From: an uncultured Litoreibacter sp.
GTDB lineage: Bacteria > Pseudomonadota > Alphaproteobacteria > Rhodobacterales > Rhodobacteraceae
Assembly: GCA_947492995.1 (NCBI GenBank)
Contig: CANLOU010000003.1
Span: 620,001 to 684,000 of the forward strand
DNA: 64,000 bases
Reading direction: 5' to 3'
Shown: piece by piece, positions 34,382 to 39,967 of the stretch
How the letters are laid out: every line of letters starts with the position of its first letter
Numbering within the stretch: position 1 is the stretch's first letter
Translations under genes and position numbers: made by a program
The notes under the pieces: generated by a model
Seen by the model: the letters and a program-made list of their open reading frames with translations, nothing else
Database searches by the model: none
Told to the model about the DNA's origin: nothing

Positions 34382-35857
34382 TTACCCCGACCAAACGTCC
34401 CAGATGCGTTTCAGCAATGACACCAACCAAGCGAAACGCGCCTCACCTTTCTTGGCCTTGTCCAGGTACAGCCCAATCTGGGTAAGCCAATGGGTCAGCA
34501 CAGCCATGGCGTATTTCGATGGGGGTTTCCCGGCCTCGATCGTCTCTGCAAGATGCTCAATCGCTTCTTGCGCGTCGTCTTCCAGCACATCAGCAAGCTC
34601 TTTGCCCGCTTTTCGCAGGTCTCGGGCCGTGTCGTTTGATACCGACTGAGGCGTGGCCAACTTCCCATAGACTTCAATGTGTTTGGCTACGGTCGGGTCG
34701 GCCTCCGCGAAGATCGCGACATGAGCTTTAAGCTGATTGCACAGGTGCATGGTCGCCAATGCATCCGGGTAGGCCCCAGATTGAAACTTCGCGTCGAGCG
34801 AGACATGAACCTGATGAAACGTGGGGCCAAGATGGCGCGCTTCTTTTGGGAGCGTCTCCAACGCGAACTTGAGAAGAAGCACTTCTTCGTCATCCGCCTT
34901 AAGCGCATTCGGTCTGCTGGTATCTAACGCATGACCAAGCGCCGCCTGAATGCTCTGATGAGCAAAATCAACGGGGTCAGTCGGTGTGTCACTGCTATGG
35001 TCGAGTTCAAACTTCTTACTTTCGAAGTTATGAACCAAAGGTTGTGCAACCTCTGTTCGAGCCAAAATCAGCTTTGCACGCTTGCCGTCGAAACGAGCAC
35101 TTTCCTCAAGCGGATCGTGAGGGTCTTCAAAAGCTATTGTCGTTTCTTTTAGGTATGCAGTCTCGATCTCTCGGATCGCCTCTGCAACCGCTGCAGCACC
35201 GCTCTCCCAAACCTCATCAGCGATGAGCGCAATCCTCTCCTGCAAAGTCCAATCCAACGGCGTGCCGTCCAGAAAGCCTTGATGCCATTTCTTCCAGAAC
35301 GCCCAGTCGGGTCCAGCGGTTTGTGTGAAGTCGTCCCAAGCGGGTTTTAAAACACCCAAAATCCCTTGATTGTACCAAAGGCGCGGTGAGAAGGCGGAAT
35401 GGGCATCCTGCGAAATCGCATCCGAGCAATCTTGATAAGTGGCGGAATGGGCGGCGGGACGGACGGAATAGCCGGAACCGGCGGTGTGGGCGGAAAGGGC
35501 GGCGGAATGGGCAGAACGGGCGGAAAGGGCGGAATAGCCGGAAATGGCGGCGGAAAGGGCGGAACGGGCGGAATGGGCGGCGGAAAGGGCGGAACCGGCG
35601 GCGGAAAGGGCGGAAAGGGCGGAATGGGCGGAACGGGCGGCATCTTTCACATCATCGGTTGGCGCAAGAACAGCAACCGCTGATGTGAGAATGGCACGTC
35701 CTGTCAATAGGGCAAGTATTTCGAGGCGGGGCTCATCAAGCTTGCTAAGAACCGCTGGAAAGGCCCTTAGGCTGGCCCGCGCGGCAATGGCAATGTGCAC
35801 AGGTTGCTCCTGCGTTTCTAGCCACTCTTTGAATTCCTCGTCGTCTGTGACCGCCAT
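34382..35857 (-). CDS. large Ser-Ala triplet-repeat protein of unknown function
   Basis: 491 residues. An ordinary N-terminal region (1-72) is followed by a low-complexity run (73-139) of triplets [L/H/R/Y]-S-A, sometimes with an extra Ala. It is built from 9-bp units GGCGGAANG on the plus strand. Then comes a helical domain with [48 protein letters not shown] and a Glu/Ala-rich helical C-terminus ending [14 protein letters not shown]. No signal peptide and no membrane span is obvious. I know no defined family, though similar Ser-Ala-rich proteins with a W..W..G.PLDW..ERIALI segment occur in other bacteria. It borders lepA, with REP-like repeats at its 3' end. Confidence 0.75.
35441..35641. 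repeat. imperfect 9-bp tandem repeat coding for Ser-Ala triplets
   Basis: About 200 bp of GGCGGAAAG, GGCGGAATG and GGCGGAACG units with occasional extra GGC or variant codons. Because the period is 9, all three frames of both strands stay open, producing spurious Gly-rich frames on the plus strand. Unit gain or loss would keep the gene in frame. Confidence 0.9.
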
Positions 35858-36072
35858 TTAGCTTCGCGTGTTTGAAAAACCTAAAACCAAGTTCTAGGTC
35901 ACATGTAGGAGTTGCCGCACTCAATTACACCTTTGTTTTTGGAAGGTGTGTCGGCAGCTGCCGCGAATTTATCCGTAGTTACGGCTTTCGATTGAGGACT
36001 GCCTCACAGGCACCAACCACCCCACACCCAATTCCCATTGACCGCACCCCCAAACCCCACCATATCAACGCC

Positions 36073-37872
36073 ATGACCGAGCTTTCACATATCCGCAATT
36101 TCTCCATCGTGGCGCATATCGACCACGGCAAATCCACGCTGGCCGACCGGTTGATCCAGGAGACCAACACCGTTGCCGCGCGGGACATGAAAGAGCAGAT
36201 GCTCGACAGCATGGATATCGAGCGGGAGCGCGGCATCACCATCAAGGCCAACACCGTGCGCATCGACTACAAAGCCGATGACGGGCAGGACTATGTGCTC
36301 AACCTCATCGACACCCCCGGCCACGTGGATTTCGCGTATGAGGTCAGCCGCTCCATGCGCGCCGTGGAGGGCTCGCTGCTGGTGGTGGACTCGTCCCAAG
36401 GGGTCGAGGCGCAGACCTTGGCCAATGTCTATCACGCCATCGACGCCGACCACGACATCGTGCCGGTGCTGAACAAGATCGACCTGCCCGCCTCTGACTG
36501 CGACCGCGTGGCGGAGCAGATTGAGGACGTCATCGGCATCGATGCCACCGGCGCCATTCAGGTCTCCGCCAAGACGGGGCAGGGCATCCACGAGACGCTG
36601 GAGGCCATCGTCAAGGAACTGCCCGCGCCCAAGGGCACCCGAGACGCGCCGCTCAAGGCCATGCTGGTGGACAGCTGGTACGACAGCTACCTCGGCGTCA
36701 TCGTGCTGGTCCGCATCATCGACGGCGTGCTGAAGAAGGGCGACCGCATCAAGATGATGTCGAACGACAGCACGCACCATGTCGACCGCATCGGCGTCTT
36801 CAAGCCCGAACGCGAGGATATCGCGGAGCTTGGCCCGGGCGAAATCGGCTTCCTCACCGCCTCCATCAAACAGGTGCGCGACACCCGCGTCGGCGACACC
36901 ATCACCCACGAGAAGAAAGGCACCACCGAGCCGCTGCCAGGCTTCAAGCCCTCCCAGCCGGTGGTGTTCTGTGGCTTGTTCCCGGTGGACTCGGCCCAGT
37001 TCGAAGACCTGCGCGACGCCATCGAGAAACTGGCCCTGAACGACGCGTCTTTCAGCTACGAGATGGAAACCTCCGCGGCGCTTGGCTTCGGCTTCCGCTG
37101 CGGCTTCCTTGGCCTTCTGCATCTGGAGGTTATCCGCGACCGGATCGAGCGCGAATATGACATCGAGCTTATCACCACCGCGCCGTCGGTCATCTATCAC
37201 GTCCACATGCAGGACGGCGAAATGGTCGAGCTGCACAACCCCGCCGACATGCCCGATCTGGCCCATGTCGACCACCTTCAGGAACCGCGCATCAAGGCGA
37301 CCATCTTGGTGCCGGACGAGTATCTGGGCGACGTGCTGAAGCTCTGTCAGGACCGCCGCGGCATTCAGGAGGACCTGACCTATGCCGGCTCCCGCGCGAT
37401 GGTGGTCTACGACCTGCCGCTGAACGAGGTGGTCTTCGATTTCTACGACCGCCTGAAATCCGTCACCAAGGGCTACGCGTCGTTTGACTACCAAATGACC
37501 GGCTACCGGCAGGACCGTTTGGTCAAGATGCAAATTTTGGTCAATGACGAGCCGGTCGACGCACTCTCCATCATGGTCCACCACGACCGTGCCGAGACGA
37601 GGGGACGGGCGATGGTTGAGAAGCTGAAGGACCTGATCCCCCGCCACATGTTCAAAATCCCAATCCAAGCCGCTATCGGTGGCCGGATTATTGCCCGCGA
37701 GACGTTGGCCGCCATGCGCAAAGACGTGACCGCAAAGTGTTACGGCGGGGATGCGTCCCGTAAACGCAAGCTGCTGGACAAGCAGAAGGCGGGTAAAAAG
37801 AAGATGCGGCAGTTCGGGAAAGTGGATATACCTCAAGAGGCGTTTATTTCGGCGTTGAAGATGGATGGGTAG
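36073..37872 (+). CDS. lepA: elongation factor 4 (LepA)
   Basis: 599 residues, the standard length. Translational GTPase with [14 protein letters not shown] (P-loop, about 14-27), [11 protein letters not shown] (switch I), DTPGHVDF (switch II), NKIDLP (G4) and the LepA-specific C-terminus [41 protein letters not shown]. The start [19 protein letters not shown] at 36073 is the family N-terminus; the open frame upstream to 35872 is not conserved in type. The gene for the NTase-like protein begins three bases after the stop with no terminator between. Confidence 0.97.
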
Positions 37873-37875
37873 GCA

Positions 37876-38442
37876 TTGAATTCTATTGACGACCTTCAAA
37901 ATGAATTGAGTGCGCTGACCTCCGACCAGTTTGTGTCTCAACACATCTTTGAAAGAGTTCCGTTTGTTTTTGAAGGCAATTGGAACAGTTATCGGTTATG
38001 GACTGCAAAAGCAGCTGAGTTGTTAGACGTAGATCCAAAGAGTATAGCTATTGTAGGAAGCGGTGCGTGTGGGTATAGTCTTAATCCCAACAAGGCTTTC
38101 AAGAAATTTGATCGAAACTCCGACATCGATTTGGCCGTAGTCTCAGGCCATCATTTCGATGTAGCTTGGCGAAGTTTGCGGCGGACGAAAATATCAAAAG
38201 CCCAGAACCCAAAAGAGCGCGAAGCTATAACTGATCACAGAACTCGCCTGATATATTGGGGCTGCATAGCAACTGATAAGGTTTTGAGATTTTTACCATT
38301 TGCTTCACAATGGGGCAATGCGGCAATAAAGCTTTCTGGCTATGAGCCGGTAGACGGACGCGTAGTAAACTTTAGACTTTATAAGGATTATGAGTCCCTG
38401 AGGGGGTATCAAATCAACTCACTTACAGGGGTAAGACGATGA
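37876..38442 (+). CDS. nucleotidyltransferase-like protein in a low-GC operon
   Basis: 188 residues. The segment SIAIVGSGACGYSLNPNKAFKKFDRNSDIDLAVVS (57-90) shows the G-S...D-x-D pattern of the polymerase-beta-like nucleotidyltransferase fold (G61-S62, D83, D85), but the 20-residue gap between GS and DID is longer than in minimal NTases. No third acidic residue can be placed with certainty. The start is TTG at 37876, three bases after the lepA stop, and no in-frame ATG follows nearby. GC content and codon use (many AAA, AAT, TTT, ATA) differ sharply from neighbours, indicating transfer. The stop overlaps the start of the DUF262 gene as ATGA. A defence role is only inferred. Confidence 0.75.
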   Translation: MNSIDDLQNELSALTSDQFVSQHIFERVPFVFEGNWNSYRLWTAKAAELLDVDPKSIAIVGSGACGYSLNPNKAFKKFDRNSDIDLAVVSGHHFDVAWRSLRRTKISKAQNPKEREAITDHRTRLIYWGCIATDKVLRFLPFASQWGNAAIKLSGYEPVDGRVVNFRLYKDYESLRGYQINSLTGVRR

Positions 38443-39497
38443 TGGATCAGAAGTTCCTTGAGTCGACGACACGAACGATTTCGTGGCTGTCAAAACGGGA
38501 CCAAGCGAATGAGCTGGTATTGCAACCCACTTTTCAACGTAACGCCGTTTGGAGTGAGAAGCAGAAGTCATTTCTAATTGATACCATACTCCGCGGTTAT
38601 CCAGTGCCCGAGCTGTATATGCAGGACTTCACAGACTCCAACGGCGATGATACTTATGTTGTTGTGGACGGTCAGCAAAGAATTCGTGCATGTCTAAGTT
38701 ATTTGGCAGATGAATTCAGATTGAATGAAGATGACAGTTCGGATTTTGGAGAGCTGAAGTTTTCTAAACTTTCTGAAGAGCAACGAAAAAAAATCTACAA
38801 CTACAAGTTTGTTGTGCGTACTCTTCCGGAAATGCCACAAGAAGAACTTCGTGCAATGTTCCTTAGGATCAACAGGAACTCAGTTTCCTTGACTCCTCAA
38901 GAACTTAGGCACGCTACCTATTGGGGTGAGTTTATTAGTTGTTGTGCGTCACTTGCTGATAATGAGATTTGGTCTGAGTTGGCAATTTTTTCGCCAAACA
39001 ACATTCGACGTATGGCAGATATTGAGTTTATTAGTGAAATCGTTTCAGCTATTGTCGGTGGTCTTCAGAACAAGAAAGACAATTTAGATACATTCTACGT
39101 GACGTATGAAGAATCTTTCGAAGATAGAGCTCTTATTGAGGCGAGGTTCAATAAGACATTATCTGAGATCGGAATGCTTCTACCCAATCTGTCGAAGACT
39201 AGGTGGAGAAAAAAATCAGACTTCTACTCGTTATTTTTGGTTTTGTATCGCTGGTCGTCCTCCTATCCTCTAGCGAGTGATATCCGCAAAGAATTGGGCG
39301 AGGCCCTCAGTGGAATGGCAGAAGAAATCGACGCTTTCGCTACTGCTGATGAAACTAATCAGGAAAGTCATACCCCCGAAATAAGGCGCTATTACCGATC
39401 CGTGGTCCAATCCGGTGCTGATCTTGGGAATCGCAAAGTTCGGGATACAGAAATCGAAAGAGTGGTTAAAGAAGTTCTCGACGAGGAGACCGACTGA
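38439..39497 (+). CDS. DUF262 domain protein (GmrSD/ParB-Srx-like NTPase)
   Basis: 352 residues. LQPTFQRNAVWSEKQKSFLIDTILRGYPVPELYM (28-61) and VVVDGQQRIRACLSYL (74-89) are the PxFQR-x-x-W and DGQQR signatures of DUF262, the domain that powers the GmrSD modification-dependent nuclease and several other defence proteins. ELRAMFLRINRNSVSLTPQELRHATYWGEF is the following conserved helix block. The C-terminal part (about 200-352) is helical; no DUF1524 HNH nuclease motif (DHxxP) is seen, so a nuclease activity is not shown. It is coupled by a 4-base overlap to the NTase-like gene and shares its low GC. Confidence 0.85.
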   Translation: MMDQKFLESTTRTISWLSKRDQANELVLQPTFQRNAVWSEKQKSFLIDTILRGYPVPELYMQDFTDSNGDDTYVVVDGQQRIRACLSYLADEFRLNEDDSSDFGELKFSKLSEEQRKKIYNYKFVVRTLPEMPQEELRAMFLRINRNSVSLTPQELRHATYWGEFISCCASLADNEIWSELAIFSPNNIRRMADIEFISEIVSAIVGGLQNKKDNLDTFYVTYEESFEDRALIEARFNKTLSEIGMLLPNLSKTRWRKKSDFYSLFLVLYRWSSSYPLASDIRKELGEALSGMAEEIDAFATADETNQESHTPEIRRYYRSVVQSGADLGNRKVRDTEIERVVKEVLDEETD

Positions 39498-39631
39498 AGA
39501 GCGAACAATCGCACTACCGAGTGATCTCTATTCGCAGCCACCCGTGACATCTTACCCCCTCGTTTCCCCCTGACCCCCTCCCTACATTGGGGTATTGTTC
39601 ATGCAACGAAATTCTTGAGGGGACCCCGCCC

Positions 39632-39967
39632 ATGTTCAAATTCCTGTTTGGCAAGAAGCCAGTCGAAGCCGTCAAAGAAACCCAGCGGGAGACCGTGACC
39701 CGCGCGATGGGGGAGGTGAATGAGATCCTCGCCCTCATGGCCGTGAAGGCCAATGTGTCCGTGGACCTCAACACCGGGTTGGTCAATATCGAGCTGCCCC
39801 AGCAGATGCCGGATGAAGCCCTCGCGCTGCCGGCGCCGGAGGAAAAGCCGGAGCCTGAGATGGCTGAGGAGAAGGCCGAGGACGCGCCCGAGGCGGAGGC
39901 GGAGGCGAAAGACGACGACGCGCCTGCCGAGAAAGCGGAAGACACCCCTGCCGAGAAAGCTGCCTGA
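39632..39967 (+). CDS. acidic Ala/Glu-rich small protein
   Basis: 111 residues starting MFKFLFGKKPVEAVKETQRETVTRAMGEVNEILALMAVKANVSVDLNTGLVNIELPQQMPDEALALPAPE, followed by a strongly acidic Ala/Glu/Asp tail (about 68-111) typical of disordered regions. The globular N-terminal half looks conserved in type, but I recognise no family. The start at 39632 follows GAGGGGA. The next gene overlaps or nearly abuts its stop, so the two form an operon. Confidence 0.7.
   Translation: MFKFLFGKKPVEAVKETQRETVTRAMGEVNEILALMAVKANVSVDLNTGLVNIELPQQMPDEALALPAPEEKPEPEMAEEKAEDAPEAEAEAKDDDAPAEKAEDTPAEKAA

Follow-up and report, generated by a model that had tools for sequence, protein, structure and literature searches.

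A DUF262 gene paired with a nucleotidyltransferase-like gene behind lepA: probably an undescribed phage-defence system

The type IV restriction enzymes GmrSD, BrxU and SspE share a DUF262 (GmrSD_N) domain with the motif DGQQR and carry a DUF1524/HNH nuclease domain. DUF262 proteins without DUF1524 are present in several further defence systems, of which PD-T4-2 is tabulated as DUF262 plus HEPN and Menshen includes a predicted OLD nuclease (PMC10952713; papers are cited here by PubMed Central, PMC, accession and each for part of its text). TgvAB and GrwAB are GmrSD-like systems of two genes, both of which are needed (PMC12409362), and single-gene and double-DUF262 designs are named in a survey covering 20 GmrSD clusters common in Enterobacteria (PMC12373910). 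How DUF262 proteins stop phages without DUF1524 is the question addressed by the pair of genes analysed here, a DUF262 gene and an upstream gene for a nucleotidyltransferase (NTase)-like protein, which lies directly behind lepA in DNA of an uncultured Litoreibacter sp. (contig CANLOU010000003.1, positions 620,001 to 684,000 of the forward strand; this whole stretch of 64,000 nucleotides, nt, is called the window). The sequence-only reading of the window did not know the pair as a described system, and this agrees with our findings: the NTase-like protein has no PADLOC 2023 model, and the portions consulted of the full-text literature in PMC, which takes in neither preprints held elsewhere nor subscription papers nor supplementary tables (e.g. 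the P2-hotspot tables of PMC9122126), contain no description of a DUF262–NTase pair. The cassette is probably an undescribed phage-defence system, because the same two genes occur together in bacteria of many kinds and in a known antiviral cargo spot of phages; it would be a DUF262-based defence with a new partner. More specifically, we favour, at about even chances of being right, a mobile two-gene anti-phage (anti-mobile-element) module inserted behind lepA, in which the DUF262 protein senses and gates and the NTase-like protein provides the output. Near-strict pairing, joint inheritance, prophage-type and plasmid copies, placement in a known antiviral hotspot, conserved catalytic-type motifs in both proteins and the lack of a nuclease of known type are the evidence for such a module.

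The second protein of the pair is a DUF262 protein, as first proposed, with the motifs F32-Q-R34..W38 and D77-G-Q-Q-R81 and a match to Pfam GmrSD_N (PF03235, 5.3e-24); DGQQR is kept in 79/79 aligned DUF262 sequences. With regard to DUF1524/HNH, neither window protein has a Pfam nuclease match at E <= 10, and by Pfam and structure model a nuclease domain of a known GmrSD type is missing from the second protein, so that the lack of DUF1524 remarked upon earlier is real. A classical GmrSD system was rejected for this absence; in place of the nuclease domain, the DUF262 protein has an NTase-like partner from a separate, conserved upstream gene. The predicted architecture is a ParB/Srx-fold, NTPase-like domain (about residues 8–150) followed by a helical C-terminal part; the model matches BrxU, SspE and ParB, and its alignment with BrxU stops at BrxU residue 419 of 580. 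By PADLOC the best match is NsnA (5.2e-43), which we take to be the DUF262 gene of Menshen, the accompanying genes presumably being NsnB and NsnC, one of them an OLD-type nuclease. Menshen was rejected, since the NTase partner fits no PADLOC model, and no Nsn model was found by PADLOC among ten NTase members; moreover, Menshen has a predicted OLD nuclease, whereas the NTase–DUF262 pair has no generally conserved third gene. PADLOC PD-T4-2_A matches as well (2.5e-20), and PD-T4-2 likewise is a small system with a DUF262 protein lacking DUF1524. Its partner, however, is HEPN, whereas neither Pfam nor PADLOC finds HEPN in the NTase-like protein and none occurs among the 20 families listed for 79 relatives; PD-T4-2 was rejected for this mismatch. 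TgvAB and GrwAB resemble the window pair in having two genes and DUF262 but differ from it in that both of their proteins bear DUF262 and one bears DUF1524. A second DUF262 match (E 3e-12) lies elsewhere in the same genome (L165, G000:C1:1356910-1357383), within a longer open reading frame (ORF) of 612 amino acids (aa).

The G-S...D-I-D motif noticed in the first protein stands at G61-S62...S82-D83-I84-D85. G61, S62, D83 and D85 are present in 87/87 aligned sequences, the GS being partly imposed by the pattern used to scan for relatives, but all four occur in 10/10 sequences collected without that pattern, and D83 and D85 in 69/69 from the genome scan. D134, in the window protein and in 68/83 sequences, is a candidate third carboxylate. 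The predicted structure is a confident model with weak structural matches, mostly to Pol-beta-type nucleotidyltransferases; Foldseek returned no match at E <= 0.001, and the NTase profile run against the PDB retrieved only a designed protein, in stretches with i-Evalues > 200. A new fold cannot be deduced from this lack of close structural matches. No Pfam, NCBIfam or PADLOC 2023 model names the protein, and it matches no PADLOC 2023 family at E <= 10. The NTase identity is putative: the protein has the conserved motif, and the model's weak matches, although mostly NTases, are not decisive. Decay of the window NTase, considered for its missing K64, was dropped, as the pattern fixes K64 and only 7/10 pattern-free sequences have a lysine there.

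One of the ten NTase members weakly matches the PADLOC oligonucleotide-cyclase model (Cyclase, E 0.025). Together with the two-gene layout of NTase and effector, this match would suit signalling of the cyclic-oligonucleotide type (CBASS-like), with the NTase making a nucleotide messenger and the DUF262 protein, with its nucleotide pocket, acting as receptor and effector; yet the match is at noise level and the NTase, at about 190–230 aa in most loci, is smaller than CD-NTases, which makes this explanation improbable. HEPN-MNT toxin–antitoxin modules offer another comparison: as in the window, a small NTase adjoins its partner, and MntA nucleotidylates and silences HepT. In an analogous manner the NTase here might nucleotidylate and silence the DUF262 protein, which would then be a toxic effector freed during infection. 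The small NTase and the translationally coupled two-gene layout without a widely conserved third gene fit this possibility, and MNT–HEPN modules are discussed in PMC3710099. We nevertheless think it unlikely: DUF262 serves as sensor or gate in characterised GmrSD relatives (PMC10952713), and structure comparison, which covered the helical part of the DUF262 protein only partly, revealed no toxin there. The window NTase differs from HEPN-MNT modules in having a DUF262 partner and in its GS-to-DxD spacing (17–35 residues in the aligned NTases).

The pair recurs in other genomes. Recurrence was one of two checks on which the sequence-only reading staked its proposal, the other being the presence of an NTase and the absence of an intact GmrSD-type nuclease; both went its way, the NTase part not decisively. 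Loci were found by the NTase alone and the downstream gene was then inspected. A scan of 84,980 species genomes with one peptide pattern, [VT]GS[GA]KLGFS, yielded 117 confirmed relatives, 80 of which were examined using longest-ORF gene calls; because a single pattern was used, the scan favours part of the NTase family and fixes the pattern residues. In 75/80 of these loci DUF262 is the next same-strand ORF after the NTase, a count that takes in one locus with a fragmented DUF262 (L040) and one with a fragmented NTase (L089). As called, 70 of the 75 are spaced from a 60-nt overlap to a 15-nt gap, and 74 show an overlap or a gap of at most 15 nt. The five loci without an adjacent DUF262 are L031, L050, L062 (where the contig ends soon after the NTase), L076 and L091. 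Fifteen NTase loci on viral contigs represent eight distinct contigs, and DUF262 follows directly in 8/8; in L017 the DUF262 gene runs off the contig end. Two of three plasmid records (Pseudoalteromonas, Cronobacter) contain both genes. An Aliarcobacter plasmid (L004:5869-8528) has a DUF4365 protein behind the NTase in place of DUF262, which suggests partner exchange. There is also a longer NTase subfamily (258–265 aa) without a DUF262 neighbour, in which L050 adjoins SIR2 and Piwi-like genes and L076 lies within a DUF1156/DUF499/SIR2/HerA island.

Distribution is patchy. In 61 genomes (the window's own and close relatives) the NTase occurs only at the window's copy, i.e. in 0/60 relatives. 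A phrog_32008 search of 397 genomes of the phylum gave one further copy, G191, adjoining DUF262 (it is L066 of the 80 genome loci), and profile searches found the NTase in 3/398 genomes of the phylum and 4/295 of the family, each time with the window's own included; in 4/4 new loci from the profile searches DUF262 adjoins the NTase. By DNA similarity, 1/5,426 E. coli genomes carries the pair. No match was obtained by tblastn of three NTases against the phage collection, and a single-protein scan of viral contigs gave four pattern matches, none of them confirmed. Chance ORFs were rejected as an explanation, since relatives of either protein share its motifs and the order of the two genes stays the same. 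A missing third gene was also rejected: a same-strand gene within 30 nt occurs in 7/91 loci only, two of which (L089 and L050) show no true third gene, and third-gene clusters recur only locally, as the upstream methyltransferase described below and, in Poribacteria, as one gene at position -1 (4 loci) and another at +2 (3 loci). In L040, L089 and L090 the module or its methyltransferase is in pieces, which suggests decay in some lineages.

The two genes have been inherited together. Distances between NTases and between DUF262 proteins correlate with r = 0.906 over 84 loci (Mantel test without L017, L040, L066, L089 and the loci lacking DUF262; rows had been removed by length from alignments A8-A11), a value reached in 0/2000 permutations, the best of which gave 0.121. 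On the tree of 84 DUF262 proteins, labels for ten named phylum-level groups change 16 times, versus a minimum of 9 and a shuffled mean of 41.1, i.e. the proteins cluster by phylum with some crossing, and the changes above the minimum are no proof of transfer. The window protein belongs to a starred set of eight, whose other seven members include viral contigs L018, L020 and L021 and plasmid L005; its place is unsure because its branch is long and long branches meet at its group.

An important question is whether this pair serves in phage defence. In E. coli strain 1500 it lies (L007:3286-4880) in a prophage whose genes follow the P2-type order, between that for the replication endonuclease and that for the portal. 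It is flanked by Phage_GPA and portal genes on viral contig L020, where further small ORFs separate it from gpA, and by homologues of gpA-type and portal-type genes on viral contig L021. The gpA–gpQ interval is described as the hotspot of anti-phage systems of P2-like phages (Rousset et al., PMC9122126). In L015 and L016 the pair is, by eye, apparently near integrase genes. The defence role first proposed is thus supported by location, i.e. by the P2-type hotspot and by neighbouring methyltransferases. That the pair is an accessory module without defence function, e.g. a domesticated repair or RNA-processing pair, would be in keeping with many copies amid ordinary chromosomal genes and with the lack of a known phenotype, but is hard to reconcile with hotspot and plasmid copies and patchy distribution, and we regard it as highly improbable.

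Neighbouring genes matched 191 PADLOC families at 1e-10 in 125 ORFs, versus 5 in 125 control ORFs, although these numbers count profile families, many of them redundant. The families listed are methyltransferases, in up to six ORFs. The test set comprised 139 ORFs, left from 143 after removal of edge ORFs and with L066 and the duplicates L001, L002, L009-L014 and L022 excluded. Of these, 125 were used, as were 125 out of 136 control ORFs; the controls came from 20 stretches in ten genomes of the window's own phylum, whereas the test loci span many phyla. Among the 25 most frequent of 151 neighbouring Pfam families there are six C5 methylases, four Uma2 and two integrases besides ordinary genes.

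In 6/6 loci with a DUF262 protein of 487–506 aa (L019, L054, L065, L084, L090, L094), which form a starred clade in the DUF262 tree, a C5 methyltransferase gene lies upstream on the same strand, with gaps of -3 to 16 nt except in L090 (in pieces, 136 nt); L033, outside this clade, also has one, 11 nt away. On viral contig L019 (2387-6994) the genes for the C5 methyltransferase, the NTase, the long DUF262 protein and an SRA-HNH protein follow one another. This clade and the SRA-HNH gene point to DNA sensing, and ParB/Srx domains with NTP-regulated nicking have been reported (PMC5512222, PMC12839542). Hence the DUF262 protein could itself be a DNA-nicking or DNA-binding restriction factor, i.e. 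a ParB/Srx-type nuclease, with the NTase as an accessory or DNA-end-modifying partner. GmrSD and BrxU, however, cut by DUF1524 (PMC10952713), and inspection of the invariant DUF262 columns by eye brought up no nuclease motif (weak evidence); we consider such a restriction factor unlikely.

In the module that we favour, the DUF262 protein, with its ParB/sulfiredoxin-type nucleotide pocket and helical domain, would be sensor and NTP-hydrolysing gate. It may recognise invading DNA or its modification state through the kind of nucleotide-dependent switch that has been described in BrxU and SspE (PMC10952713). Once activated, it would license the partner NTase, which would transfer a nucleotide onto an RNA or protein target and so stop phage growth, thereby taking the role played by the DUF1524/HNH nuclease in GmrSD; in the methyltransferase clade, the upstream cytosine methyltransferase would mark self DNA. 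This division of labour and all biochemistry of the pair are inferred, as are the mechanisms suggested in the sequence-only reading (a DUF262 NTPase controlling the NTase, or a toxin/antitoxin-like pair), and the present data do not tell the favoured reading apart from rivals in which DUF262 is held back by the NTase, nicks DNA itself or answers to a messenger. More tentatively, and with a greater chance of being wrong than right, the pair may stand for a widespread form of immunity whose DUF262 component, an NTPase that senses DNA as restriction systems do, acts through a nucleotidyltransferase and not through a nuclease. It would occur either as a bare two-gene cassette or, in one clade, together with a dedicated cytosine methyltransferase in an operon resembling those of restriction-modification. 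If so, ‘restriction’ could end with a nucleotide being attached to some cellular target, without DNA cleavage. As a two-gene case the pair is minimal and phylogenetically broad, its conserved residues are sharply defined in both proteins, and an E. coli copy lies in an antiviral hotspot; the non-nuclease output of DUF262 can therefore be tested directly in laboratory strains.

Table 1. Features of the lepA region (window positions).
Feature	Position	Strand	Remarks
NTase-like gene	37876..38442	+	TTG start, 188 aa; phrog_32008 family
DUF262/GmrSD_N gene	38439..39497	+	ATG start, 352 aa
ATGA overlap, couples NTase and DUF262 genes	38439..38442	+	
lepA, housekeeping gene of the host (ORF as listed)	35872..37872	+	3' end = cassette insertion point
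First host gene 3' of cassette, small acidic ORF	39632..39967	+	start by eye; listed as 39587-39967

The coordinates, start codon and ATGA coupling given in the sequence-only reading were correct when the ORFs were checked (table 1). The lepA stop codon TAG occupies 37870-37872 and the NTase gene starts 3 nt later in the lepA frame, separated from it by this stop and one sense codon; both cassette ORFs are intact. Fusion onto lepA, as originally worded, is too strong a term, because lepA keeps the end and stop common to 18 relatives. The base and codon use is indeed deviant: the GC content of the cassette is 0.436 versus 0.606 for the window, the minimum among 1,184 stretches of the cassette's length taken every 50 nt outside it is 0.546, and third-position GC is 0.41 in the NTase gene and 0.44 in the DUF262 gene versus 0.85 in lepA. 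A scan for sites in the region found no terminator-like site between lepA and the cassette, as had been noted. Its promoter- and terminator-like matches are at chance level (3 vs 2.8 and 4 vs 2.5), with one plus-strand promoter-like match at 38284, within the NTase gene; a promoter or terminator of its own ahead of the cassette was rejected on this ground, and transcription from lepA is plausible judging by the layout. A single pair of 21-nt direct repeats flanking the cassette (37640-37660 and 39624-39644, 81%) was judged too weak and rejected.

In 18 relatives from the genus, LepA ends in the same residues except the last, followed by the stop, and the sequence beyond differs in most of them. 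The first kilobase 3' of lepA averages 47.6% GC versus 57.8% further on in the 17/18 relatives with enough sequence, the difference being at least 5 points in 12/17 and smaller in 5/17. Cargo at this site includes DUF3800 (L125, and by eye alike L129), Fic (L130), DUF2971 (L132) and others; in L131 a 421-aa protein starts 2 nt past the lepA stop. The start of the host gene 3' of the cassette recurs behind different cargo in L112 (96% over 28 aa). Within this genus the DNA 3' of lepA is a site for cargo that varies and is mostly low in GC. The genes behind lepA vary among relatives and the NTase is absent from all 60; therefore the cassette occupies a site of turnover. Some cargo genes in L123-L140 begin about 2–8 nt past the lepA stop. 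Upstream of lepA, on the minus strand (34382-35857), lies an ORF of 491 aa with a long Ala/Ser-rich repeat.
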